This document shows, one piece after another, positions 11,997 through 60,316 of a stretch of DNA of 60,412 bases. This DNA comes from a virus. How positions within the stretch are numbered: position 1 is the stretch's first letter; each line of letters opens with the position of its first letter. The stretch is taken from the IMG/VR virus record IMGVR_UViG_3300034522_000052, positions 1-60,412 of that record; one strand, 5' to 3'. The notes under the pieces are model-generated. The model was given only the letters and a program-made list of their open reading frames with translations, made no database searches and had not been told where the DNA came from. Both the position numbers and the translations under genes were made by a program.

Positions 11997-12683
11997 TTAG
12001 CGTGGCTGCATCAGCGATTTGGTGCGCCGGGTGACGGAAGCCAGGGTCAGCTTCATCAAGTCGGTCAGGTCGTCATTGCTCATCAGGTCGAGCATGCGCT
12101 GCATGTCGCGCGGGTCGGTTGGGTCAATGACGTGGGCGCAGTCGGCAACCGGCCAGAGGGTGAGGCTATCCCCGCCGTGGCGGCCGCTCATACTGCCACT
12201 GTCTGGCTCGATGCTGAGCATGTAGCGGGTGGCGCCCAGCTTATGGCAGAGGGCCTTGGCTAGTTGCTGCCCGCTGCATTTGTGCAGGTCGCTGGCAATG
12301 GGCGGGAAGGGGATGTCATTATCAGTCAGCTCAGCAAGCTGGCGGTGCAGTGCTTCGCTTTCGCTGCGGCGGGCCGCTTGAGCGGCAGCGTACACCTCGA
12401 CTTCAAAAGCGGGCTCAATCCAGCCTGCATATTTCATGGCCACCAACTCGACCGCCCACACTCCTGGCTTATTGCCACCCCTCACCGTTTTCAAAGCGGG
12501 AAATCCCGCTTTGGCCTCTACCGCTGCGATGTAGGCACCATTGAAGCGCTTGAACTCGCTGGGCTTGTGCGATGTGGTAGCTTTGCCTTGGGCGATGGCA
12601 GCTTTATGCAGGTCGTTGAGGTTGTACATACCATCGGCTGCAATGGTGATGGAGTGGTTGGCAATGGTGAGCTTAGTGTTCAT
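11997..12683 (-). CDS. KilA-N domain protein (antirepressor-type regulator)
   Basis: 228 residues from ATG at 12683 with AAGGAAA upstream. Residues 1-110 are a KilA-N DNA-binding domain (DGMYNLNDLHKAA, KPSEFKRFNGAYIA, GGNKPGVWAVELVAMKYAGW). The C-terminal part has no known motif. The same frame is open upstream to 12851 and would add an Ash-like stretch. The C4-type RNA and complementary leader just upstream suggest antisense control, as for the P1 ant gene. Its likely role is to oppose a repressor or regulate lytic entry. Confidence 0.8.
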   Translation of the reverse strand: MNTKLTIANHSITIAADGMYNLNDLHKAAIAQGKATTSHKPSEFKRFNGAYIAAVEAKAGFPALKTVRGGNKPGVWAVELVAMKYAGWIEPAFEVEVYAAAQAARRSESEALHRQLAELTDNDIPFPPIASDLHKCSGQQLAKALCHKLGATRYMLSIEPDSGSMSGRHGGDSLTLWPVADCAHVIDPTDPRDMQRMLDLMSNDDLTDLMKLTLASVTRRTKSLMQPR

Positions 12684-12851
12684 AGTTGATTTCCTTCGGT
12701 TCAAAGATGAATCGCCACCGAAGAGACCAATCTTACTGGTGACGAACTGAGCAGGATTGGTCTTACCGGGAACCAAAGAAACCGGCGCCCCCGAAGAGGC
12801 TCCTGCCCAGCCCGTCATAACTGAAATTGCGGGTACTACTGGGCTGCACAT
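12684..12851 (-). other. Ash-like 56-codon leader frame fused in phase to the KilA-N gene
   Basis: From ATG 12851, which lies in the T-run of the C4-RNA terminator, the frame encodes 56 residues ending LNRRKST directly before the KilA-N Met, with no stop. The part NPAQFVTSKIGLFGGDSS resembles the Ash family of P4-like phages (known as short separate peptides). Either the leader is translated as an N-terminal extension or it is conserved because the RNA is the antisense target. Confidence 0.5.
12724..12763 (-). promoter_or_regulatory. Target hairpin of the C4-like RNA in the KilA-N leader
   Basis: AGACCAATC (minus strand 12763-12755) pairs with GATTGGTCT (12732-12724), forming a 9-bp stem around a 22-base loop. 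The same GATTGGTCT occurs in the loop of the small RNA (12903-12895), so the RNA can compete for AGACCAATC. This fits the a/a' pairing logic of C4 RNA. Confidence 0.6.
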
Positions 12852-12926
12852 AAAAAAACACGCGGGCGCGTGTTGTGCGCTTTAGTTCATCGGGAGACCA
12901 ATCCCGGCAATGGATTTTGCCATTGC
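12852..12926 (-). ncRNA. C4-type antisense RNA
   Basis: A unit of about 75 bases on the minus strand with its own strong promoter. First hairpin GCAATGG/CCATTGC (12926-12907). Second hairpin GGGA/TCCC exposes GATTGGTCT (12905-12892). The last hairpin, AACACGCG/CGCGTGTT followed by seven Ts (12874-12852), is an intrinsic terminator. Size, order, position before an Ash/KilA-N gene and complementarity to its leader match the C4 RNA family of phages P1/P7 and the related P4 cI RNA. I could not compare it with the family model. Confidence 0.65.
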
Positions 12927-14913: not shown

Positions 14914-15519
14914 TTATGCCCTTCTTAGCTCGATCATCTTACCAAGGATAAGGGCGTCACTGGCTTTCAGGAAACCGAAGTGGGGGTCATCAACGACTAG
15001 GTTCATTCCATCAAGAGCTGTCTTAGCTCGGAGGAGCAGGACCTTATCTCCGTGCCGTACCAATGCAATGTCCTCAGGAACTAACTTGCGCTGTTCAGGG
15101 CTCATATCAATGACTATGACATCTCCCTTATGGATGCCACTACCGGCCAAGTCGTCGTTGGCTGCAACCACGGCACACAAGTGACCACCTTCCTCTACGA
15201 CCAGGTGGCGGCCGGTATCAATTAGCGGGATGGCATCGCTTGGCTGGCCAGCCAGATCGGCGAGTTCCCAGATTGGCACCTTCGATATTTCCATGCTTGA
15301 TGCGTATTCAGAGCTGCTTTTCCCTACGAAAAGCCATATCGGGTCACAACCAAGCACTCTTGATATACCCAAGACGCTGCTGATTCTTGGGTCGGTAGTG
15401 TTGCCGTGGATGATGGCACTCAGCGTTGGTTTTGATAGGCCCGTTTTTCTAGCCAGATCTGCTGGCTTAAGACCTTTCTCATCCATCAGTTGCTGGAGTC
15501 TTTCGTTAAAGGAAGACAT
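14914..15519 (-). CDS. CI-type phage repressor with degenerate S24 domain
   Basis: 201 residues from ATG 15519; in-frame starts at 15531 and 15552 are possible. Residues 8-45 are a helix-turn-helix (LMDEKGLKPADLARKTGLSK). The C-terminal half has the LexA/CI fold (KGDVIVIDMSPEQ...ALVRHGDKVLLLRAK). In my alignment with lambda CI, Asp stands where Ser149 should be (AANDD against EGNSM) and Leu where Lys192 should be, so self-cleavage is unlikely. It should bind the operators at 15575-15611 and block cro. Confidence 0.85.
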   Translation of the reverse strand: MSSFNERLQQLMDEKGLKPADLARKTGLSKPTLSAIIHGNTTDPRISSVLGISRVLGCDPIWLFVGKSSSEYASSMEISKVPIWELADLAGQPSDAIPLIDTGRHLVVEEGGHLCAVVAANDDLAGSGIHKGDVIVIDMSPEQRKLVPEDIALVRHGDKVLLLRAKTALDGMNLVVDDPHFGFLKASDALILGKMIELRRA

Positions 15520-15574
15520 CAATTTCACCATATCGTTAGATTCAACAAACATATCCCATTATGCCTCTGTGCAA

Positions 15575-47265: not shown

Positions 47266-47421
47266 ATGAAGACGAGCAGCATCCCGCCATTTGGCGTTCG
47301 GATGGAAAAAGAACTGAAAGACTTGCTGGCCAAGCAGGCAAGGAAAAATGGGAGATCTCTTAACTCTGAAGTGGTCCAGATCCTGAAAGAGGCACTTAAG
47401 TATGAAGAGAAAGATGTGTGA
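47266..47421 (+). CDS. Arc-like repressor, cassette 1 (51 aa)
   Basis: MKTSSIPPFGVRMEKELKDL, LAKQARKNGRSLNSEVVQIL: a minimal Arc protein (P22 Arc has 53 residues). First gene of the rightward antirepressor transcript, so it should limit its own expression as Arc does. ATG behind TTGGAG. Confidence 0.88.
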   Translation: MKTSSIPPFGVRMEKELKDLLAKQARKNGRSLNSEVVQILKEALKYEEKDV

Positions 47422-47435
47422 GGGTGTAAATGGCT

Positions 47436-47465
47436 CGGCCCCGGCGGGTGCAACCGCCAAGGCCG
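47436..47465 (+). promoter_or_regulatory. Conserved two-part hairpin before antirepressor 1
   Basis: CGGCC, 2 bases, GGCGG, 6-base loop, CCGCC, 2 bases, GGCCG. It lies 15 bases after the Arc-like stop. The same 5-2-5-6-5-2-5 layout occurs in cassette 2 at the same distance, with a paired change inside the inner stem. Confidence 0.8.
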
Positions 47466-47500
47466 AAGGATGTAAATCAAACCAAGTTGAGGACCTGTGT

Positions 47501-48298
47501 ATGAATTTACACGAGAAGTGTAACGCTTCTGATACTGACAGCCAAGTGGCGCTGATCCCGGTTAACCAGAGCCAGGTCGGTGATGATCTGGTGCAGACCG
47601 TCAATGCTCGCGAGCTTCATGCCTTTCTGGAGGTTGGGAAGGTGTTTGCCGCCTGGATCCAAGAGCGCATAGAGCAGTTTGGCTTCGTTGAAAATCAAGA
47701 CTTTATAGTTATTTCCGAAACTGGAAAAAACCCTAAAGGTGGGCGACCTAGCAAGGAATACTTCCTCGCACTGGACATGGCCAAAGAACTGTCCATGGTT
47801 GAGCGCAACGCGAAGGGGAAGCAGGCTCGCCAATACTTTATCCAGTGCGAGCGCGTGGCAAAGTCACCGAACAACAACCCCATGCTGGTCGCTTCCACCA
47901 TGAATAGCGATCAACTGGCCCTGTTGATGGGGGAGGTTAAGCGGCGTGAAGCGGTGCAGCGTGAGCGAGACGAGGCGATCCGCACCAAGGCTTGCATCTC
48001 CAGCAGCCGAGAGGCGTCCGTAATGGCCAAGCTGGGCCATACCAAACGTGAGAACGAAGCGCTCAAAGAGCAATTGGGAGTTGGCACCAAGCACAAGAGC
48101 GTGAAGGGTGCAGGGCTGGAGCAGTTCTATATCGATGAGGGTGGCAACCGACGCCAGACCGCCAACCGGCTCAAGAAGATTGCGCTGGAGATGGGATTGG
48201 CTGGCGACATCATCGACATTGAAGACCCTAACTACGGCACGGTGAAGGCGTATCCGGTCAGTGTGATAGAGCGTTTCAAGCTGGAGGTGGCGGCATGA
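47501..48298 (+). CDS. AntA/AntB-type antirepressor, cassette 1
   Basis: 265 residues from ATG 47501 with GAGGA upstream. Residues 25-105 form the AntA/AntB N-domain (QTVNARELHAFLEVGKVFAA, GRPSKEYFLALDMAKELSMV, NAKGKQARQYFIQCER). The C-terminus (GAGLEQFYIDEGGNRRQTAN...) is a second small domain. Should bind and inactivate the CI-type repressor or a related one. The upstream frame through the hairpin is open but is probably leader. Confidence 0.87.
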   Translation: MNLHEKCNASDTDSQVALIPVNQSQVGDDLVQTVNARELHAFLEVGKVFAAWIQERIEQFGFVENQDFIVISETGKNPKGGRPSKEYFLALDMAKELSMVERNAKGKQARQYFIQCERVAKSPNNNPMLVASTMNSDQLALLMGEVKRREAVQRERDEAIRTKACISSSREASVMAKLGHTKRENEALKEQLGVGTKHKSVKGAGLEQFYIDEGGNRRQTANRLKKIALEMGLAGDIIDIEDPNYGTVKAYPVSVIERFKLEVAA

Positions 48299-48438
48299 GT
48301 GCAACCCAACTGCAAGACGAGCTGACCGCCTTGCTCGGCGATCTGGATGCTATTGACCTGACCCCAGAGGATCGCAGGCTGATTGCCAATCGGATTGAGC
48401 GCATGATGCCGGTTGAATATTCACCCGCCCAGCGTTAG
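48295..48438 (+). CDS. 47-residue helical peptide following antirepressor 1
   Basis: MSATQLQDELTALLGDLDAI, DLTPEDRRLIANRIERMMP. ATGA overlap with the antirepressor gene. Clearly related to the peptide at 59698 in cassette 2 and less closely to the one at 59957. Late promoter D overlaps its end. Confidence 0.75.
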   Translation: MSATQLQDELTALLGDLDAIDLTPEDRRLIANRIERMMPVEYSPAQR

Positions 48439-48441
48439 CAT
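48413..48441 (+). promoter_or_regulatory. Late promoter unit D
   Basis: TTGAAT, 17 bp, TAGCAT, with CCCAGCGT before the -10. It overlaps the last codons and stop of the 47-residue peptide gene. Start predicted near 48448; reads into the giant virion gene. Confidence 0.7.
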
Positions 48442-48485
48442 CTCTCCATCGTCGGTCAGTCTGCATGCTGATCGCCCCATCTCAA

Positions 48486-48520
48486 AAGCCCCGAACGGTT
48501 CGCCGCTCGGGGCTTTTCTT
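48486..48520 (+). terminator. Hairpin terminator after late promoter D
   Basis: AAGCCCCGA/TCGGGGCTT with a 12-base loop and a TTCTTTT tail, about 40 bases after the predicted start. Confidence 0.78.
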
Positions 48521-48544
48521 TTGAATACAGCCGAGGCCACTCGA

Positions 48545-51500
48545 ATGGACAAGTACAGTCTCCGTGACGCATCCCTGCCACAACCGCTGCAATCTGACTC
48601 TCGAGGAAAGCAGTTCTGGGATGGCATCAACAGTCAGCTTTCATCACCGCCCGCAGCTGCGGCCCCAAAGCGAGACCTCGACACAGAATGGAGCGATTAT
48701 CCCAAGGCGGTAGGCGCTGGCGCGTTGGAGCTGGTCGGTGGCATTGGTGAGTTAGCGCGGGGCGTGATAAGTCACGGGAAAGAGAATGGGGGGAAGACTG
48801 CTTGGGGGAATGTTGCCTCTGCGATCACCCCCTTGATGAAAGGGGTTGCGGCAACAGGGGATTTAGCTCAATCCGGCGCGGATGCCTTGAACGAGAGTAT
48901 GAGTGCTGACGCCAAGGAGGCACTGGGACGCCGACTGGTCGATGAAACGCCAGAAGGCCGGTTGACCCTGGGGGATGGCGCAGGGGATATCGATGTCTGG
49001 GCGATGAAAATGGCGCAGGGCGTTGGCTCTTTGCTACCGACACTCGCCGCTGGCGGGGTGACTGGGGTGGCCGCCAAAGCCTCTATCGGCCGGGCTGTCA
49101 CTGCATCCATGGTCAAGCGTGGCGCGACCCAGGAGGTAGCCGAAGCGGTTGCCGCCAAGGCCGTGTCCAAAATTGCCACCGGCGCCGCCGTCACCACTGG
49201 TGCGACCGGGTCAGTCGGCAGTGCGGGGGTGAACACTCGTGACACCGTGCTGGGCATGAGCTTTGATGAGCTTTCCCGCAGCGATACCTTCCGCCAGGCA
49301 TTCACCCGCATCGACCAGGATCAGCAGACGCAACACCTCTCTGATGAGGAAAAGCTGTCGTTGGCCCGGGAGGAGACTGCCAATGTTGCCAGCCGAGCCA
49401 CCATGAGCGACGCCAAGGTGTGGGGCGCGGCGGCTGTCGGTTCCATGATGGGCGATGCCATGCTGTTCAAGATGCTGGCTGGCAAGGCGGCCACCGGTGG
49501 AGTGCTGAAAGGTGCTGCCAAGGGGGCGGCAGGTGAGGGTATCAGCGAAACCCTGGAGGAGGGGGTGCAGCAATACGCTGTCAACGAATCCCTCAACGAG
49601 GTGGCCGCCGCTGATATCGACCCGATGAAGGGGGTCATGTCGAGCGCGATCGAGGGCGGCTTGATAGGGATGGGGGCAGGTGGTGCGGTAGGTGCTGTCG
49701 GTGGGGCGCGAGGCGGTAAGCATGCCAGCCAGGAAGATGGCGTTGGGACCGATCCGGTTTCAGAACCTTCCGCGCCGGTGACGGAGGGCGCTGCTGGTCC
49801 GGCAGTGGATCCGAACTTTGCATCTGCTCCACTGGAAGACGGCGAGCAGGCGCCCTCCTCCTCGCAGGCCGAGGGGGAGCTGAATCCGCTCGGCCCCAGC
49901 GCCAGCCAGTTTGACGAGCTGCGTGATGTGCCGGCCTATCTGCGTCAAGACGATACCGCCGATCGTTTCAAGGGGATGGCGCAGGATAGCGACGTTCAGC
50001 GAGCCTTGGCCGGTGAGTACGGGAGGTCAGTGCAGGAGCTGGTTGCTTCCCAGATGCAGGCTGGCGATCAGGGCAAGAGTCTTTATGAGCGAGCTCAGGC
50101 TGGTGAGCTTGGGCTTGACCCGTTCGCAGGCAACAAGAGCGCCCAGCAGGTAGCCATGGAGAACCAGCGCCTAGCCCTGCCGCTCAAGGATGTGATCTTT
50201 GCGGGCGATGCCAATGCTAAACCCAAGGGGGAGGCAGTGGCAGCACCTGGGGATCACGATGACCAACAGGCTGGCCCCGGCCCGCAATTCCGAGGTGGTG
50301 AGCGTACCCGCTGGCAGAGCGGGCAGGAGGGGGATGTGTTGCCGCCAGAGGCATCTTCCACCAAGCCCGCTGGCGAGCTGCCGGGCGCGGTGATTGAGGG
50401 TGAGGCCCGCGAGGTGGGTAACGAGTTGCCGCACCGCAATGTGGTCTATGGCAATGACTTGCGCGCCGAGCAGCAACGGGCCGCCGATCTGGCCCGCCGT
50501 GAGCGCGAGCTGAACAACCAGCCCCTGCAGATCGGTCAGTCAGAGACCCTCTTTGCCGGGGGCACACCGGGCGCTGACCCGCGCAATAGCGCCTATACCC
50601 CGCCCAGGCTGTCACGGGATCAGGTCGATACCAGCATGGGCGAGCAGTCCACCCGCGATCCGCGCAGCCCGGTGGCGCAGTCCATCGAGCAGGCAGGCAG
50701 CGCCACCGATTCGGTATTTGGCCCGCTCAAGTCGTTGCGCATCACCCGCAAAGGCAAGCCGTTCGCAACCGAGAAAGAGGCTGCCATGGCCAGCCGCAAG
50801 GGCCAGGAGATGCCGGTGCCGCTCAATGGTGGCGGCTTTGGGGTAGCGGCTATCGGTGAGGTGCAACAGGCCCAAGCGCAGCAGGGCGCAGTCAAGCAAC
50901 CGTCAAGCAATTCGGCCCAGCAGGATCGCCAAGACGGAAAGACTGAGATCGCGCAAAATGGCATGGTGATCGTTCATGGTTCCGGCAATCCAGGCATGAG
51001 CGAGCAGGATATTCAGATTGTCCGCGCAAGTGGTCAGAAGCAGGGCAAAAAGGGCCGTGTCTATGGTGGCTTCTATGGCACCAGCGAGCAGGACGCGCAC
51101 CAAGCGCAAGCCTACGCCGATATGATGGGCGGCACGCCCACCCTGTACGATGTCAAGATTAAGCCTGGCACCAAGGTGTTGCACAAGCAGGGGGATATTA
51201 CCCGCCTTTCTGAAAGCTACATCAACGAGTTGGTGAGTCAGGGATATGGTGTGGTCACCGGCACCGACCCGCGCGGCCAGACAGAGCATGTAGTTATCGA
51301 CAAAAGCGCCGTAGCAAGCATGGCCCCGCGCGGCGCGCAAGCAACCCCGTCCCAAGTCAACGACACGAATGTCGCTGACATAAGGCAACCATCTGATCAG
51401 CCAGCTGCAAGCGTAAGCGCTGAAACAGTTCCGGCACCGTCTGCCACAGCGGGCGAGGCCAGCCAATTAGTACCAGCTATCGATACCGGCTACCGGGATG

Positions 51501-54500
51501 TTATCCCTTCCAGCGAACAATCCGAGGTGACCCATGGCCAGCCTACCCCGATACCTGCAATCAGCAGTGAGCGACCAGGTGATCAGCCTGGAGCAGGCGA
51601 TCCGGTTGCAACAGGTGTTGGACAAACCACTGCCGAACTCGCGGAGCGAGCTGGACCCGGAGATCCGGCAGATGGTGCTCCTCTTACACCTTTACCTGTC
51701 ACCCAACCAGGAGAGGAAAATGCACTGACAGCCCCGGCACCTGCCGGGGTTGCTGTATCTGAAGGGGGGCAACCTGAGCAAGCCCGCGCGACTGCTGGGC
51801 CAGCGGCAGCGCCGACACCCTGGTCGGGGATGATCGATAACCCTGACGGCACCATCACCCTGGAAGGGGAAGTGGCGGCCCTCAAGTCGTGGGCGAAGGA
51901 TAACGGCGTGAAGGCGATCCCGGGCAAGGGTGGCCTGGTAGTGTCCACGACTTCGGTAGCTAAGGTGCGACAGCTCACCACGCCTGCCACCAGTGAACCG
52001 GTGCGGCAGATTGAAGCGGCCCGCGCCGAGATAGCGCCGGAGCCCACCGAAGCACAGAAGGAAGCGGGGAACTACAAGAAGGGGCACATCAAGCTGCAGG
52101 GGCTGGACATTGCGCTCGAGAACCCCAAAGGCTCTACCAGATCAGGTACCGATCAGGATGGCAGGGCGTGGCATTCAACCATGGCCCATGACTACGGCTA
52201 CATCAAACGCACCCTGGGGGCGGACGGTGATCATGTCGATGTGTTCATCGGTGACAAGCCAGATAGCGAGACGGTCTATGTGGTTGACCAGGTTGACCCC
52301 AAAACCGGCAAGTTTGACGAACACAAGGTGATGATGGGCTTTTCCGATGAGCAGGCCGCCCGGGAAGGCTACCTTGGCAACTACGAGGCGGGCTGGAAAG
52401 GACTGGGTGCCATCAAGGCGATGCCGGTGGAATCGTTCAAGCGCTGGGTGAAGGAGGGGGATACCACCAAGCCAGTCGCCAAGAAAGTCCGCATGTCTCA
52501 GCAGCGGGAGGGACTGTCCGCTGACGATGTGGCTCAGATTGTTTCTGACTTTAGACGTGAGTATAAAGGGGCTCAGTCACTCGACTTTATTGTTGGTCAA
52601 ACTCAAGAGGACCTTTATGGACCAGAAGGCGGCCCCGAGCAAATTGGATGGCGGGATGGGGGATACCTCCCCGGCAAGCAGCAAGTCCACCTCATCGCAG
52701 ACAGCATCACCCGCAGAGCCGGGCGTCAGGGTGTTCACGAAGGCGCAGGGGGAGAAAGAGGGGTATCTGGAGATCCCCGTCTTTTACAGCAGAACAGACC
52801 TGCGCCACGAAATGAACAGGGTATGGGAGGAGTTGAAAGAGCAAAAGCGGAAGTCGTCTCTACGTTACGTCATGAGGTCCTGGGTCACTATGGCCTGGAC
52901 ACGTTTACGCCTGAAAATAAGCGAGCTCTCCTCCAAAAGCTGAGTGATGCCAAAAGTGAGAAATGGCTTGCTCCTGCCTGGTCAGAAATCTCCCGCCCGG
53001 AGATGTATGGCGATAAAAGTGAGCAGCACCAGGCGGAAGAGGTGTTTGCCCACCTTACTGAAAACGAGTTGCCACCCCGTGCCATTCAAGCCTGGAACGA
53101 TATCAAGACCGAGTTCTCCCGCATGTTGCGCAAGACTGGCTTGGTGAAAGGCCCCATTAAAGAGCATGAGCTGGACAGCCTTATCAAGGCGGTTGGTAAA
53201 GGCATTCGCAGTGGAGAGCGCACCAAGCAGAACATCCGCAGCGATCAGGAGGTGATCGGCAAACAAGCCGATGAGCCAGCCAAGGATGACAAGCCCGAGC
53301 GCATCATCCGCTTCTCAAAGCAGGCAATGGCACAAGGGGACAAGCCGGCCAAGCACCTGACCCGTAAAGAGGTTGAGCTGGTTTCCCATGGTTGGTTCAA
53401 GCAGTACCGGGGGGCGAGCGGCATCAAGGTACAGATCCACGCCACCCAAGCAGAGCTTGAAGGGGCCCTGGGGCTGGATGCCAAGGACGGATTGATCCGT
53501 CGCGCGGCGTTTGACGACGATGCAGGCACTCTCCATGTGGCTGCCGACACCATCTCCGACCCCAAGCGGATGCGCGAGATCCTGCGCCATGAGGTGCTGG
53601 CCCACTACGGCCTGGCCAACGTCCTGGGTGATGGGGAATACACCAAGCTGATGAGCCGTCTCATCCAGTCGCAGAAGGACCCCAGCATGAAGCCGGTGTG
53701 GGACTGGGTGAACACCCATTACGCCGATGAGGACATCGGCACCCAAGCCGAGGAAGTGGTGGCCCACCTCGCCGAAGTCGAGCAGGGGGCCTGGGGCCGT
53801 GGCTGGGATCGGGTTGTGGCCATGGTCACCCGGGCGCTGCGCGCCGTTGGCTTCGTGCCGGATGGCATCACTGCTGCTGAGACCCGTTCCCTTATCGAAG
53901 GACTGGGTAAGCAGTTGCAGCGAACTGGACAGGATGACGGAGGCTCAGGCGGCAAGAAGTTCAGCCAAGAGGCCGAGCGGCCAGCCAATGATGGCGGCAT
54001 CAAGATGAGCCAGAGTATTGCTGATAACAGCCCTTCCCTTGAGCAATCCATCACGCAAAAGGCGAAATACCAAGCCGGCGCGGCGCTTGGCTCGGTGAAG
54101 AACTACATCAAGCAGAAACGCCCGGTGATGCTTGGCACCTTGACGGACCTGCAAATTGATCAGGTATACCGCGACATAACCGGCGGGGCTGTGTCGGAAT
54201 ACCAGCGCCTGCGCACTCAGATGGAGGCTGATCGTAACGACATCCTGCTGGATGCTGAAACCCGGATCGACCCGCTGTGGGATGCGCTGGACAAGCAGGT
54301 GAAGACGGCTCTTTCCAACCTGATGCACGATGCCACCATGACCCGCTTGCACCCTGACAAGTCACTCGATGAGAACAGCTACTACCTGGAGGCCAAACAG
54401 AAGGTAGAACGAGCCAAGAAACCGGAGACCAAAGCAGCCTATGAAGCAGAGCTTCACATCATCGAGCGCAATCACTCCGAGCTGGCCAGGCAGTACAACG

Positions 54501-56782
54501 CGCTGCCAGCCAATGCCAAGGCTCTCTACGACACCATGCAGGACACCTACACCAAGCAATGGGAATCCCTGCGTGGTGCGATTGAGCAGCGACTGGAGGA
54601 TTTGCTAGGTGTAAACCAAGGGCGTGCCATGGCTGCCGAGATGCGCCAGAAGATGGAGCACGCCCTGCAGCATGGCCCTTACTTCCCGCTGACCCGCTAC
54701 GGCGACTACGTGGTTAAGGCTCGCAAGGGGGACGAGTACGTTCGCGAGCACTTTGAGCGACGAGCCGACGCCGAACAGGCGGTTAAGCAGTACCAGCGTG
54801 ACGGTTACAACGCGGTGATGACGGTCAAAGAGGAGGGCGGTGGCGATAGCGCCAACGCGAACCAGCTCGGCATGGAGATGCTGAGCTTCCTCGATAGCGC
54901 CGATGGGGTCAGTAAGAGCGCCTTGAAAGACGAGATATGGCAGGCGATGCTGCGCATGATGCCGGATGCCTCCTACGCCAAGCATGCTATTCACCGCCGT
55001 CGGGTGAAGGGGGCCAGCCGAGATGCACACCGAGCCTACCTCAACAGCGTCTACCACTATGCCCGCCACGTATCCAAGATCCGCTATGGCCACAAGATGC
55101 AGGGGGAGCTGGACAAGCTGAGCGAGCAGATCCGGGCTGGTGTCGCAGGTGAACCAAGCAGCCTCAAGCCTGAAGACCTGGAGATAGCTCAGCAGGTGCT
55201 CAATGAGATGAACAAGCGCCATGACCTGAACATGAACCCGACCGGCAAGGCGTGGGCGGGTTCTGCCGGTAATATCGGCTTTCTCTACTACATCGGCCCA
55301 TCGGTTGCCTCTGCTGTGGTCAACATGACCCAGAACTTCACCGTGATGCTGCCCCAGCTGGGGGCCAAATATGGTTTTGCGAAGTCTGCTGCCGCCATGA
55401 CCCAGGCGCTGGGGGATTATGTGAAGCACGGTAAATTCAAGGCTGGCACTACCGAAGCGTGGCACTCACTGACGCGCTCTACCACGTTGCCAGCGGATGA
55501 GCGGGCCATCCTGGATAGGCTTTACCGTGCAGGGGCGCTGGATCTCACCCAGGCGCACAGCATTGCTGCCAAGGCTGACACCGACCAGCAAGATGCCAAG
55601 CCGATGGGGAAACGCTGGCGCCGAGCCATGCGCTGGGCGGGGGCCACCTTCCACAACGCCGAGGTGCTCAACCGTGAGGTGGCGGCCCTGGCCGCCTACC
55701 GTTTGCTCAAGCAGGCGGAGCCGACGCTCAATGGCCAGCAATACGCTGACCGGGTGGCTGAAATGGTGTATGACGGCCACGGCAACTACGCCGCCAGCAA
55801 CCGACCACGCTACATGCGCAACGACATCACCAAGGTGCTGACCCAGTTCAAGATCTACAGCCAGATGATGACCTACGTCCTTTACTCCAATGCCATCAAG
55901 GCAGCCAAGGGCGACAAGGTGGCGCAGAAGACGCTTGCCGGCGTGTTGGCAACGCACTGGGTGATGGCAGGGGTGATGGGATTGCCGACACCAATCACCG
56001 CCGTCGTTTATGCGATAGCAGCAGGGCTGGACGACGACGATGACCGCAGCGGTGAAGCGTCATTCCGCCTGGCACTGACCGAGGCGCTCGGGCCCCGCGC
56101 CGGGGAGCTGCTAGCCAAAGGGCCGATGGATGCCTTGACCAATCTCAGCATTGCCGGCCGTACCGGGCTGGGCGATCTGTGGTGGCGTAGCCCCAAGGAG
56201 GGCACCGAAGGGGACGATCTGGCATGGCACGCTGTTCAGCAACTGCTGGGCCCGGTTGCCGGGATTGGCATAAACCTGGCGCGGGGCGCGGGGCAGATGA
56301 CGGATGGCCACATTCAGCGCGGACTGGAAACTATGTTGCCCAAGTCGATTCGCGACGTTGCCAAGTCCTATCGCCAAGCGACAGAAGGGGAGCAGACCAT
56401 TAAAGGCGACATCATCATGGATGATGTTTCGACCTGGAACGTCGCCATGCAGGGGCTGGGTTTCGGTAGCGCCCAAATGGCCAAGAATTACGACGCCCGC
56501 GAATACATCAAAGGCAAGGAGAAACGCATCGCGGATAAGCGCTCCCAGTTGCTGACCGACTATTACATGGCCCGCAAAAGTGGTGAGATGGACGAGGTGC
56601 AAGAGGTACTGGAGCGCATCAAAATGTTCAATTCCATCAACCACCCTCGCGAGCGCATCACCGGCAAGAGCTTGGCGTTGTCGTTTAAGTCAAAGCTTCG
56701 CAGCAACGAGCGCACTCAGGGCGGGGTATACCTCAATCGCAACCGCGAATACCTGAGAGAGGAGGGGCGCTTCGCCGATTAA
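48545..56782 (+). CDS. Giant polyvalent virion protein (2745 aa)
   Basis: Start ATG 48545; the open frame before it crosses the terminator. Residues 1-420 are Ala/Gly-rich and membrane-active (SIGRAVTASMVKRGATQEVA). About 805-930 resemble an ADP-ribosyltransferase-like fold (MVIVHGSGN, RVYGGFYGTSEQDAHQAQAY). About 1170-1310 are the pyrophosphatase-like polyvalent domain (KGHIKLQGLDIALENPKGST). Zincin motifs HEVLGH (about 1442) and HEVLAH (about 1681) follow. The last 650 residues include an LPD38-type region. Such proteins are ejected into the host with the DNA. Confidence 0.85.
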   Translation: MDKYSLRDASLPQPLQSDSRGKQFWDGINSQLSSPPAAAAPKRDLDTEWSDYPKAVGAGALELVGGIGELARGVISHGKENGGKTAWGNVASAITPLMKGVAATGDLAQSGADALNESMSADAKEALGRRLVDETPEGRLTLGDGAGDIDVWAMKMAQGVGSLLPTLAAGGVTGVAAKASIGRAVTASMVKRGATQEVAEAVAAKAVSKIATGAAVTTGATGSVGSAGVNTRDTVLGMSFDELSRSDTFRQAFTRIDQDQQTQHLSDEEKLSLAREETANVASRATMSDAKVWGAAAVGSMMGDAMLFKMLAGKAATGGVLKGAAKGAAGEGISETLEEGVQQYAVNESLNEVAAADIDPMKGVMSSAIEGGLIGMGAGGAVGAVGGARGGKHASQEDGVGTDPVSEPSAPVTEGAAGPAVDPNFASAPLEDGEQAPSSSQAEGELNPLGPSASQFDELRDVPAYLRQDDTADRFKGMAQDSDVQRALAGEYGRSVQELVASQMQAGDQGKSLYERAQAGELGLDPFAGNKSAQQVAMENQRLALPLKDVIFAGDANAKPKGEAVAAPGDHDDQQAGPGPQFRGGERTRWQSGQEGDVLPPEASSTKPAGELPGAVIEGEAREVGNELPHRNVVYGNDLRAEQQRAADLARRERELNNQPLQIGQSETLFAGGTPGADPRNSAYTPPRLSRDQVDTSMGEQSTRDPRSPVAQSIEQAGSATDSVFGPLKSLRITRKGKPFATEKEAAMASRKGQEMPVPLNGGGFGVAAIGEVQQAQAQQGAVKQPSSNSAQQDRQDGKTEIAQNGMVIVHGSGNPGMSEQDIQIVRASGQKQGKKGRVYGGFYGTSEQDAHQAQAYADMMGGTPTLYDVKIKPGTKVLHKQGDITRLSESYINELVSQGYGVVTGTDPRGQTEHVVIDKSAVASMAPRGAQATPSQVNDTNVADIRQPSDQPAASVSAETVPAPSATAGEASQLVPAIDTGYRDVIPSSEQSEVTHGQPTPIPAISSERPGDQPGAGDPVATGVGQTTAELAERAGPGDPADGAPLTPLPVTQPGEENALTAPAPAGVAVSEGGQPEQARATAGPAAAPTPWSGMIDNPDGTITLEGEVAALKSWAKDNGVKAIPGKGGLVVSTTSVAKVRQLTTPATSEPVRQIEAARAEIAPEPTEAQKEAGNYKKGHIKLQGLDIALENPKGSTRSGTDQDGRAWHSTMAHDYGYIKRTLGADGDHVDVFIGDKPDSETVYVVDQVDPKTGKFDEHKVMMGFSDEQAAREGYLGNYEAGWKGLGAIKAMPVESFKRWVKEGDTTKPVAKKVRMSQQREGLSADDVAQIVSDFRREYKGAQSLDFIVGQTQEDLYGPEGGPEQIGWRDGGYLPGKQQVHLIADSITRRAGRQGVHEGAGGERGVSGDPRLLQQNRPAPRNEQGMGGVERAKAEVVSTLRHEVLGHYGLDTFTPENKRALLQKLSDAKSEKWLAPAWSEISRPEMYGDKSEQHQAEEVFAHLTENELPPRAIQAWNDIKTEFSRMLRKTGLVKGPIKEHELDSLIKAVGKGIRSGERTKQNIRSDQEVIGKQADEPAKDDKPERIIRFSKQAMAQGDKPAKHLTRKEVELVSHGWFKQYRGASGIKVQIHATQAELEGALGLDAKDGLIRRAAFDDDAGTLHVAADTISDPKRMREILRHEVLAHYGLANVLGDGEYTKLMSRLIQSQKDPSMKPVWDWVNTHYADEDIGTQAEEVVAHLAEVEQGAWGRGWDRVVAMVTRALRAVGFVPDGITAAETRSLIEGLGKQLQRTGQDDGGSGGKKFSQEAERPANDGGIKMSQSIADNSPSLEQSITQKAKYQAGAALGSVKNYIKQKRPVMLGTLTDLQIDQVYRDITGGAVSEYQRLRTQMEADRNDILLDAETRIDPLWDALDKQVKTALSNLMHDATMTRLHPDKSLDENSYYLEAKQKVERAKKPETKAAYEAELHIIERNHSELARQYNALPANAKALYDTMQDTYTKQWESLRGAIEQRLEDLLGVNQGRAMAAEMRQKMEHALQHGPYFPLTRYGDYVVKARKGDEYVREHFERRADAEQAVKQYQRDGYNAVMTVKEEGGGDSANANQLGMEMLSFLDSADGVSKSALKDEIWQAMLRMMPDASYAKHAIHRRRVKGASRDAHRAYLNSVYHYARHVSKIRYGHKMQGELDKLSEQIRAGVAGEPSSLKPEDLEIAQQVLNEMNKRHDLNMNPTGKAWAGSAGNIGFLYYIGPSVASAVVNMTQNFTVMLPQLGAKYGFAKSAAAMTQALGDYVKHGKFKAGTTEAWHSLTRSTTLPADERAILDRLYRAGALDLTQAHSIAAKADTDQQDAKPMGKRWRRAMRWAGATFHNAEVLNREVAALAAYRLLKQAEPTLNGQQYADRVAEMVYDGHGNYAASNRPRYMRNDITKVLTQFKIYSQMMTYVLYSNAIKAAKGDKVAQKTLAGVLATHWVMAGVMGLPTPITAVVYAIAAGLDDDDDRSGEASFRLALTEALGPRAGELLAKGPMDALTNLSIAGRTGLGDLWWRSPKEGTEGDDLAWHAVQQLLGPVAGIGINLARGAGQMTDGHIQRGLETMLPKSIRDVAKSYRQATEGEQTIKGDIIMDDVSTWNVAMQGLGFGSAQMAKNYDAREYIKGKEKRIADKRSQLLTDYYMARKSGEMDEVQEVLERIKMFNSINHPRERITGKSLALSFKSKLRSNERTQGGVYLNRNREYLREEGRFAD

Positions 56783-57864: not shown

Positions 57865-58248
57865 TCATCTTTTCTTACTTTTCATTTCTTGCCGAATGTA
57901 GTCCAGCACTTCCTGTATTTCCTCGCGCCGAACGTAAGGGGTATAGCGAGGATCATCCTTGTCGATCTCGTGAGGCGTGAGGACAGTGCCGGGTGGCAGT
58001 GTGAGTGCGGGGCGATCGAGGTTGAGACCTTCAATGATCTTCATTCCTTCAATGATTTTCACACCACTTTCAGCAAGCGCGGTATCTTCGTCGATGGTTC
58101 GCTGGATGCGATGAACCAACTCGGCGTTCATGGATCTGCCACTTGCCTTTGCCAACTCAGAAATAGTGTCCCTCATGCCGTCAGGCAGCCTGAGTACAAA
58201 CTTGTCTGATTCCCGGCTGGTTGGAACGGTACTTTTCTTACTCATCAT
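57865..58248 (-). CDS. Mnt/Arc-type ribbon-helix-helix repressor, cassette 2
   Basis: 127 residues. KFVLRLPDGMRDTISELAKA and SGRSMNAELVHRIQRTI are the Arc-family core; the C-terminal 75 residues are an extra acidic-helical domain (PYVRREEIQEVLDYIRQEMK). Divergent from the Arc-like gene at 58404. Expected to hold the second antirepressor transcript off in the lysogen. Confidence 0.87.
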   Translation of the reverse strand: MMSKKSTVPTSRESDKFVLRLPDGMRDTISELAKASGRSMNAELVHRIQRTIDEDTALAESGVKIIEGMKIIEGLNLDRPALTLPPGTVLTPHEIDKDDPRYTPYVRREEIQEVLDYIRQEMKSKKR

Positions 58249-58634: not shown

Positions 58635-59456
58635 ATGACTATACAACAACAGTATCAGCAAACCAAAGTTATTGGCAGGGCCGCGAATCAGTCCATGGTC
58701 GTGCCGTTCCATGGCGACAACCTCTATCTGGTCGAGCACGATGGCGACCCCTATGTACCGATGAAGCCAGTGGTTGAGGGAATGGGGCTGGCTTGGCAGG
58801 TGCAGCATCGCAAGCTGGCAAGTAAGTTCGGCAAAGGTATCATCGAAATGGTGATCCCTTCAGCCGGTGGCAAGCAGACCATGACCTGCCTCCCCCTCCG
58901 CAAGCTACCTGCCTGGCTCTACTCGATTCAGCCGGGGAAGGTTGCCCCCGAGATCCGGGAGAAGGTGGTTGCCTATCAGGAAGAGTGTGACGAAGTGCTG
59001 TGGCAATACTGGACCACCGGTAAGGCCGATCGCCAATCCGTCAGGAAGGCTGCCAAGTCCTACTTGCCGGAATACCGTCAGGCGCGGGCGATCAAGATGA
59101 CCGCAGATGCCATTACGGTGGCGCTCTCGGTCATGCCAAACCTGAGCCAAGAGGCAAGGCAAACTGCGATGGCGACGGCCGTCAACACGGTGGTTGGTGA
59201 CAACATCCTTCCTCTTCCGGTGCTGACTGAGCGTTACTACACCGCCGGAGAGGTGGGTGAGCGGCTTGGTATCAGCGCCAACAAGGTGGGCCGCATCGCC
59301 AACGAGCACAACCTGAAAACCGAGCGATACGGGAAGTTCTTCCTGGACAAGTCCCGCAGCTCGACCAAGCAGGTGGAGACTTTCCGCTACAACGAGGCGG
59401 GGGCTGAGGCGGTTGGCGTCATCATCACTGCGCTGGAAGTTGGGGGTGCGGCATGA
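58635..59456 (+). CDS. P22AR_N-type antirepressor, cassette 2
   Basis: 273 residues with AAGGA upstream. MVVPFHGDNLYLVEHDGDPY, VPMKPVVEGMGLAWQVQHRK, LPLRKLPAWLYSIQPGKVAP and IREKVVAYQEECDEVLWQYW are the N-terminal domain of P22-like antirepressors. The C-terminal HTH-like domain is shared with the protein at 1900-2343. Should inactivate phage repressors; unrelated in sequence to the antirepressor of cassette 1. Confidence 0.9.
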   Translation: MTIQQQYQQTKVIGRAANQSMVVPFHGDNLYLVEHDGDPYVPMKPVVEGMGLAWQVQHRKLASKFGKGIIEMVIPSAGGKQTMTCLPLRKLPAWLYSIQPGKVAPEIREKVVAYQEECDEVLWQYWTTGKADRQSVRKAAKSYLPEYRQARAIKMTADAITVALSVMPNLSQEARQTAMATAVNTVVGDNILPLPVLTERYYTAGEVGERLGISANKVGRIANEHNLKTERYGKFFLDKSRSSTKQVETFRYNEAGAEAVGVIITALEVGGAA

Positions 59457-59701
59457 GCGACAGCAATGTGGTTCCATTCCCGTCTGGCGGAGAGCCAACC
59501 AACGAAACGATTGAGTATCTTCTTGAGATTGAAGGGCTTCTTGAAGATGCAAAGTTGTTGACGTCAGAGTGCGCCATTGCCACCGCTGATGAGCGCAGCG
59601 AGGGGTGCAGGTCGATGGCAAACAGCAAAATCGATGAAGCTCTCATTCATATAGAGTGCTGGATCAGCGAGGAGAGATTTAGCCTGGGAGGTCTGCAATG
59701 A
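59453..59701 (+). CDS. Small helical protein after antirepressor 2 (82 aa)
   Basis: ATGA overlap with the antirepressor. NETIEYLLEIEGLLEDAKLL and a second helix (MANSKIDEALIHIECWISEE). No counterpart in cassette 1. Unknown role. Confidence 0.65.
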   Translation: MSDSNVVPFPSGGEPTNETIEYLLEIEGLLEDAKLLTSECAIATADERSEGCRSMANSKIDEALIHIECWISEERFSLGGLQ

Positions 59702-59829
59702 GTGCCGCCCAACTACAGGTTGAGTTGAATGCCCTGCTGGGGGAGCTGGAGGTTATCGACCTCTGCCCCCAGGAACGCCGGGCGCTTGTTGACAGGATCC
59801 AGCGCATGATGCCTGACAAAGCTGACTGA
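59698..59829 (+). CDS. 43-residue helical peptide, cassette 2
   Basis: MSAAQLQVELNALLGELEVI, DLCPQERRALVDRIQRMMP. Same length class and sequence pattern as the peptide at 48295 in cassette 1. ATGA overlap with the gene before. Confidence 0.75.
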   Translation: MSAAQLQVELNALLGELEVIDLCPQERRALVDRIQRMMPDKAD

Positions 59830-59834
59830 TACTG

Positions 59835-59858
59835 ATGGGGCTGCGGCCCCATTTTTAA
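59835..59858 (+). terminator. Terminator of cassette 2
   Basis: ATGGGGC/GCCCCAT with a 4-base loop and TTTTT. Separates cassette 2 from the LexA-controlled gene. Confidence 0.85.
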
Positions 59859-59898
59859 TACCCAAATCAGTCCGAAAATGATAAATTCAAGAGATGCA

Positions 59899-59914
59899 CT
59901 GTATGGGTATACAG
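59899..59914 (+). promoter_or_regulatory. LexA (SOS) box over the promoter of the last phage gene
   Basis: CTGTATGGGTATACAG: CTGT, 8 bases, ACAG, with A before and TA after, close to the gammaproteobacterial SOS box. A -10-like TATACA lies inside it (59908-59913) with TTCAAG 16 bases upstream. The only gene downstream is the 40-residue peptide. Confidence 0.78.
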
Positions 59915-59956
59915 TATTTCACAGTCGAGAGACTGGGAGAGCAAGGGGGAAATCGG

Positions 59957-60079
59957 ATGGAATCACTACTAAGCGAACTGGAAGAGTTTGTTGAGACGCT
60001 GGACCTGGCGCCTGAGGAGGAGAGCAAGATCGCGCGCATTCTGGAAAAACTACGCGATGAAGCCACCGCGTCAGCGTGA
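59957..60079 (+). CDS. LexA-controlled 40-residue helical peptide
   Basis: MESLLSELEEFVETLDLAPE, EESKIARILEKLRDEATASA. ATG behind AAGGGGGAAATCGG, 43 bases after the LexA box. Helix-DL.PE-helix pattern like the peptides ending both antirepressor cassettes. Last gene before attR. Because CI seems unable to cleave itself, this peptide is a candidate SOS-driven antirepressor or co-factor, like the small LexA-controlled antirepressors of Gifsy prophages; untested. Confidence 0.7.
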   Translation: MESLLSELEEFVETLDLAPEEESKIARILEKLRDEATASA

Positions 60080-60098
60080 CGCGGAAGGATTCGGATTG

Positions 60099-60122
60099 GC
60101 CCGCCACTGTGCGGGCTTTTCT
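60099..60122 (+). terminator. Terminator of the LexA-controlled gene
   Basis: GCCCGC/GCGGGC with TTTTCT, 19 bases after the stop. Confidence 0.8.
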
Positions 60123-60287: not shown

Positions 60288-60316
60288 TGGTGGAGCTGGG
60301 GGGATTTGAACCCCCG
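60288..60316. other. attR: 29-bp repeat at the ssrA 3' end
   Basis: Identical to 502-530. The tmRNA T-loop and acceptor end stay intact here, so integration preserves ssrA function. Confidence 0.92.

Follow-up and report, generated by a model that had tools for sequence, protein, structure and literature searches.

Coliphage 186 and N15 each bring the SOS response to a non-cleavable repressor through a LexA-controlled gene, encoding Tum and AntC, respectively. Very small size and a tie to LexA control also meet in GIL01 gp7, a LexA-binding phage protein of about 50 amino acids that maintains the lysogen in its repressed state. Non-cleavable phage repressors are described as common in the Gifsy study (PMC3121763), in which the Salmonella proteins GftA, GfoA and GfhA are demonstrated antirepressors; their small genes share an operon with a dinI homologue, outside the immunity region, and have a LexA box located behind a terminator. 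According to the same study, the Gifsy repressor lacks the cleavage dyad, relatives of these antirepressors can occur together with a cleavable CI, as FsoA does in Fels-1, and Tum is a 146-residue protein with a DinI-like half. The TF-smORF modules and Qtip of Vibrio and Aeromonas phages are also very small and inactivate CI, but their activation depends on phage transcription factors and quorum sensing and is independent of SOS; the ARM81ld smORF comes from another phage of the same host as ARM81mr (PMC10432266, PMC11323111).

We analyzed a 60,412-nucleotide stretch of viral DNA from an Aeromonas prophage, hereafter the window (IMG/VR virus record IMGVR_UViG_3300034522_000052, positions 1 to 60,412), whose last gene before attR encodes a 40-residue acidic peptide and is a candidate SOS trigger. 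The unit consists, in order, of an extended -10 element, a LexA box, a covarying GNRA hairpin, a Shine-Dalgarno sequence, the peptide gene and a terminator, and is given here with its flanking elements:

59835-59857, plus strand: terminator-like hairpin ATGGGGC-TGCG-GCCCCAT followed by TTTT, read directly and kept in many carriers
59879-59887, plus strand: extended -10 promoter element TGATAAATT, with TGRTAR conserved across loci
59899-59914, plus strand: LexA (SOS) box CTGTATGGGTATACAG, read in the sequence, kept in relatives and sharing its pattern with dinI
59922-59935, plus strand: RNA hairpin of the 5'-UTR, CAGUC-GAGA-GACUG, with a 5-bp stem and a GNRA loop, from covariation
59943-59949, plus strand: Shine-Dalgarno sequence AAGGGGG, read directly
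59957-60079, plus strand: gene of the 40-residue acidic peptide MESLLSELEEFVETLDLAPEEESKIARILEKLRDEATASA, from its ORF, homologues, dN/dS and a structural model
60098-60117, plus strand: intrinsic terminator 3' of the peptide gene (monocistronic), conserved in relatives
60288-60316, plus strand: attR core of 29 bp in the 3' end of ssrA (tmRNA), a direct repeat with its partner attL at 502-530

The hairpin at 59835-59857 sets the peptide gene apart from the ant operon that precedes it. A preliminary description of this DNA had the box, the coordinates, the 40-residue length and the placement as last gene before attR right. The gene, which starts at 59957, lies outside the immunity region, far from the CI gene (14914-15552), and has its own promoter behind a terminator, as do the Gifsy antirepressors. 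Those proteins are about twice as long as the peptide, and no GNRA leader hairpin is reported for them in the available part of PMC3121763; their action is demonstrated, whereas the peptide is a candidate identified from sequence. Its 40 residues also contrast with the 146 of Tum. Among 50,697 phage records, ARM81mr was the sole match to the peptide, and no homology to the Gifsy, Tum or AntC antirepressors was found; no sequence relation to GIL01 gp7 was seen either. In regulation and layout, the peptide gene appears to work like the known LexA-controlled antirepressors, of which it is a candidate member.

The pattern CTGT-N8-ACAG occurs once in the whole window, at the box. Shuffled windows contain a mean of 0.92 such bare matches (at least one in 60 of 100 shuffles), so the box alone is not significant, and it is relatives that make the case. 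Homologous leaders from Aeromonas phages and prophages, 34 distinct sequences in all, agree at all ten CTGTA/TACAG positions and vary at box positions 7-10, as expected for LexA half-sites. By chance, the fuller pattern CTGTA-N6-TACAG should turn up 0.03 times per window and about 3e-5 times in any one leader; one match to it, in G041, was rejected, the neighbouring gene being unrelated. CTGTAT-N4-ATACAG has two sites in the 4.5-Mb genome of A. eucrenophila, at dinI (identified by eye from the sequence) and at the peptide gene, and the peptide's box is usually the sole near-consensus SOS box of a carrier, umuDC aside. Of 35 loci, 31 have TGRTAR 17-22 bases upstream of the box (at -19/-20 in 29), against an expectation of 0.02 per locus, a spacing that places the transcription start at or beside the box. 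The box at 59899-59914 thus overlaps the presumed transcription start, just 3' of the conserved extended -10, which agrees with the overlap of box and promoter first described. The LexA control proposed along with it gains strong support from the conservation of the leaders, and LexA almost certainly switches the gene.

In conservation, the structured 5' leader comes close to the LexA box. Nearly all homologues have a 5-bp stem with a GNRA loop (GAGA, GTGA or GAAA) directly 3' of the box, and the most distant relative (G075:C15) has the stem CGGCC-GTGA-GGCCG. Across 14 distinct sequences, 100% of the cells are paired and two pairs are changed on both sides; in a control, sliding the partner by 1-3 bases destroyed the pairing. 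The thermodynamic z-score of the leader was not significant, and the case for the hairpin rests on covariation instead, by which it is an RNA element, with a probable role in mRNA stability or translational control.

A start at the in-frame ATG at 59894, which would give 61 residues and place the box inside the gene, was rejected because the leaders differ by non-triplet indels. Among coding copies of equal length, the peptide gene has a median dN/dS of 0.15, that is, it is under purifying selection; values for 39-residue copies were discarded because they allow no codon-for-codon alignment. The pattern M-[ED]-x-L-x-ELE...LDL-x-x-x-E...RIL-x-x-LR is kept in homologues down to about 45% identity. 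AlphaFold2 predicts a helical hairpin with helices at residues 4-14 and 19-39 (pLDDT 90), and the peptide is Glu-rich, with amphipathic helices and a net charge of -8. No functional relative was found in Pfam, PHROGs, PDB or a viral fold library, and Pfam gave no match to a DinI domain in the peptide. Sequence evidence for LexA control of this conserved, translated 40-residue peptide could hardly be firmer.

Rather than being confined to the window's phage, the gene belongs to a conserved family, with homologues on 20 IMG/VR contigs (the same records recur between scans) and at seven loci in genomes of six Aeromonas species. A profile search placed the peptide in 14 of 37 Aeromonas genomes. 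Among 295 genomes of the order, there was no convincing copy beyond Aeromonas. The annotated homologue, phiARM81mr p70 (ALN97651.1, labelled hypothetical), is 95% identical, has 40 residues and the same LexA box, hairpin and terminator, and is likewise the last gene of its phage. That the peptide tracks the integrase or the structural modules was ruled out, as carriers differ in both. Among decaying copies, one (L084 3001) has its 3' end replaced, and another (L241 634-759) is a homologue that lacks a LexA box.

Further decaying copies exist: L012 (6001-6120) has a nonsense stop at codon 7, L019 (10001-10102) has a frameshift in a poly-A run, and G049:C18 is a decayed remnant of the peptide unit in another phage of the same family. 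Such decay would suit an SOS-expressed moron unrelated to induction, for instance a growth-arrest or cell-division inhibitor or a superinfection-exclusion or anti-defence peptide, as would the presence of the peptide in phages with a self-cleavable CI and its place beside attR, between terminators and with its own promoter, which is typical of morons. We consider such a role unlikely: the peptide occurs in a single prophage family and is linked to paralogues that sit in antirepressor operons, and it is acidic and soluble, without the hydrophobic membrane-spanning character of TisB/Hok-type toxins. Cargo under SOS control does exist in related phages. L024, L025, L026, L027 and L029 (records G001, G002, G007 and G010) have a PF00717 (S24) gene whose LexA box is strong (TGCTGTATATAAATACAGTA or similar). 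In G001 this gene is half of a umuDC pair, the umuC having been read from the sequence, and the pair is a second cargo under SOS control. Because related phages carry LexA-driven umuDC, SOS control alone implies no role in induction.

A role in induction is suggested by the state of the repressor:

14914-15552, minus strand: CI-type repressor with an HTH and a catalytically dead S24 domain (Pfam HTH_3, weak Peptidase_S24)

Aligned with the CI of ARM81mr, which has canonical GDSM and IK motifs, the window's CI has Asp in place of the Ser nucleophile and Arg in place of the Lys. Among the CIs of this class that share a record or contig with a peptide, Ser is replaced by D, H, Q or N in all 26, and Lys is retained in some; over all paired carriers, the S24 serine is absent from CI in 26 of 28. 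The claim that this CI lacks the cleavage residues is thus borne out, and the whole group would not be expected to self-cleave. ARM81mr and G012 carry the peptide alongside an unrelated CI with an intact Ser/Lys dyad, in ARM81mr despite the close identity of p70 to the window's peptide; these two CIs are 99.6% identical to each other, which points to one recent swap. The 140-fold induction of ARM81mr by ciprofloxacin (PMC10432266) would be explicable by CI cleavage alone and does not discriminate. The objection from carriers with a canonical CI is softened by the precedent of Fels-1, which has a cleavable CI yet encodes FsoA, an antirepressor acting on another phage (PMC3121763).

The peptide occurs in 12 of 13 Aeromonas genomes with a dead-S24 CI (Fisher p 6e-7). 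The portal protein, used as a control, has the same distribution, and we did not accept this co-occurrence as proof, since it is confounded with phage family. In the thirteenth genome, a phage of the same family, beside a tRNA, retains the box, the GNRA hairpin, a distant homologue of 48-50 residues and the terminator. Of 42 IMG/VR contigs with a dead CI, 25 lack the peptide, which at first looked like counter-evidence. The ends of 19 of those contigs were checked, and several stop at the giant protein, at pepB or at the 82-residue ORF. IMG/VR provirus boundaries were several times cut at the stop codon just before the peptide, so that the gene is systematically missing there; as these ends reflect provirus trimming, those absences were not used.

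Distances between peptides and those between CIs are uncorrelated (Mantel rho 0.016, p 0.42, n=26). One CI type, 100% identical, occurs with peptides just 62% identical, and 43 pairs of near-identical peptides have a median CI identity of 0.43, mostly with CIs that are 38-46% identical. Specific binding of the peptide to the window's own CI is doubtful, because the two show no sign of having co-evolved, although the peptide may recognize a CI surface that is itself conserved. The missing co-variation would also be accounted for by a host target under strong constraint: the peptide might leave CI untouched and modulate the SOS machinery or some other conserved protein of the host, serving the phage during SOS. 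It could do so as a DinI-like acidic helix on RecA, by binding LexA like GIL01 gp7, or as a partner of RNA polymerase or a protease. We regard a host target, all of these forms taken jointly, as possible but rather improbable. Whatever the CI type, integrase or structural module of the carrier, the peptide is conserved; it is also strongly acidic and, like dinI and phage umuDC, SOS-controlled, and the LexA operons of Gifsy pair dinI with an antirepressor (PMC3121763). Yet no Pfam or PHROG relation links it to DinI or other SOS modulators, its paralogues sit in phage antirepressor operons, and CI would then have to be reached by SOS in some other way, while most carriers yielded no further LexA box.

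These paralogues belong to two of the antirepressor modules of the window:

12735-12926 and 11997-12683, both minus strand: C4 RNA/isrK and KilA-N module (Rfam)
47402-48298: AntA-type antirepressor, overlapped by pepA
48295-48438, plus strand: pepA, second paralogue of the peptide, overlapping the end of the AntA-type antirepressor gene (profile search)
57865-58248, minus strand: Arc-like RHH repressor, divergent from the ant operon
58635-59456, plus strand: P22_AR_N-type antirepressor (ant)
59453-59701, plus strand: 82-residue ORF between ant and pepB
59698-59829, plus strand: pepB, 43-residue paralogue at the end of the ant operon, its start overlapping the stop of the preceding ORF (profile search)

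Searched against 17,584 ORFs of 14 phages, the peptide profile matched only the peptide and short ORFs at corresponding places. In the first round pepA and pepB were weakly similar to the peptide (E 0.1-0.7), and their paralogy rests on position and on intermediates in G011 and G012; a second round showed an ORF of the 59698 type directly upstream of the peptide gene in most carriers. In several carriers such ORFs follow antirepressor-like genes with divergent RHH repressors, and the antirepressor domain differs between carriers while the small peptide is constant. This neighbourhood links the peptide family, by position, to antirepression. The peptide might then act indirectly, countering RHH repressors or joining Ant proteins, so that SOS would release the ant modules and these would inactivate CI. 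Such a route would explain the independence from CI sequence, and pepA and pepB overlap translationally with ant operons that come with divergent Arc-like repressors, but several carriers (ARM81mr, G001 and G002) have no recognizable RHH/Ant operon beside the peptide, which rules it out as the general mechanism; we consider it improbable, more so than a moron.

The C4 antisense RNA (Rfam RF01695) and isrK (RF01394) lie directly 5' of the KilA-N antirepressor gene and form with it an immI module of the P1/Gifsy kind. Counting both Arc/Ant operons, the window's phage thus has three antirepressor modules, the SOS peptide apart. A 2789-codon ORF (window 48413-56782) lies beside the peptide end, and its C-terminal part is conserved in phages with otherwise different structural modules. 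In L014, L015 and L020 the ant operon is replaced by a conserved putative HTH regulator of 120 residues (MKRYLTSSSLAYVHRTKQK...), located about 360-725 bases before the peptide on the opposite strand and transcribed away from the peptide gene.

As the best single explanation, held with intermediate confidence, we propose that the peptide is an SOS-induced trigger of prophage induction, a good though unproven candidate for that role. The LexA promoter, the leader hairpin, a protein under selection, the monocistronic layout and the dead CI, all read from the locus and its relatives, are its starting points. In the lysogen, LexA bound to 59899-59914, over the transcription start, would keep the gene silent. 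DNA damage would remove LexA and yield a short monocistronic mRNA with a stabilizing or regulatory 5' GNRA hairpin, to be translated into the acidic two-helix peptide, probably a dimer or docked on a partner. The peptide would then drive the prophage out of lysogeny, for which it would be needed because a CI without the serine for RecA-stimulated self-cleavage cannot respond to SOS. Candidate targets are a face that the dead S24 domains have kept in common, a further regulator of the phage or a protein of the host; as one peptide serves phages with very different CIs, the target is most likely conserved across the family, and the paralogues in antirepressor operons suggest another phage regulator. 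More speculatively, and with clearly less confidence than in the trigger role itself, the dead S24 domain may be the receptor: the peptide would dock on a surface common to CIs that are 38-46% identical and release them all. It would then be perhaps the smallest antirepressor described and an interchangeable SOS module for many immunity types, inducing co-resident prophages together, with the conserved leader tuning the dose. The antirepressor reading of the preliminary description therefore holds in part, being favoured by gene placement, layout and paralogues and weakened by the lack of co-diversification with CI and of homology to the named antirepressors.

For ARM81mr, in which no extra sensory pathway had previously been seen (PMC10432266), the peptide homologue adds an SOS-controlled gene. 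If the trigger role is true, a widespread Aeromonas prophage family would have separated SOS sensing from the repressor and moved it into a portable cassette of about 250 bp, made up of promoter, LexA box, GNRA leader, peptide and terminator, which outlasts swaps of immunity, integrase and structural modules. It would also make testable how non-cleavable repressors are induced and how small antirepressors can get.
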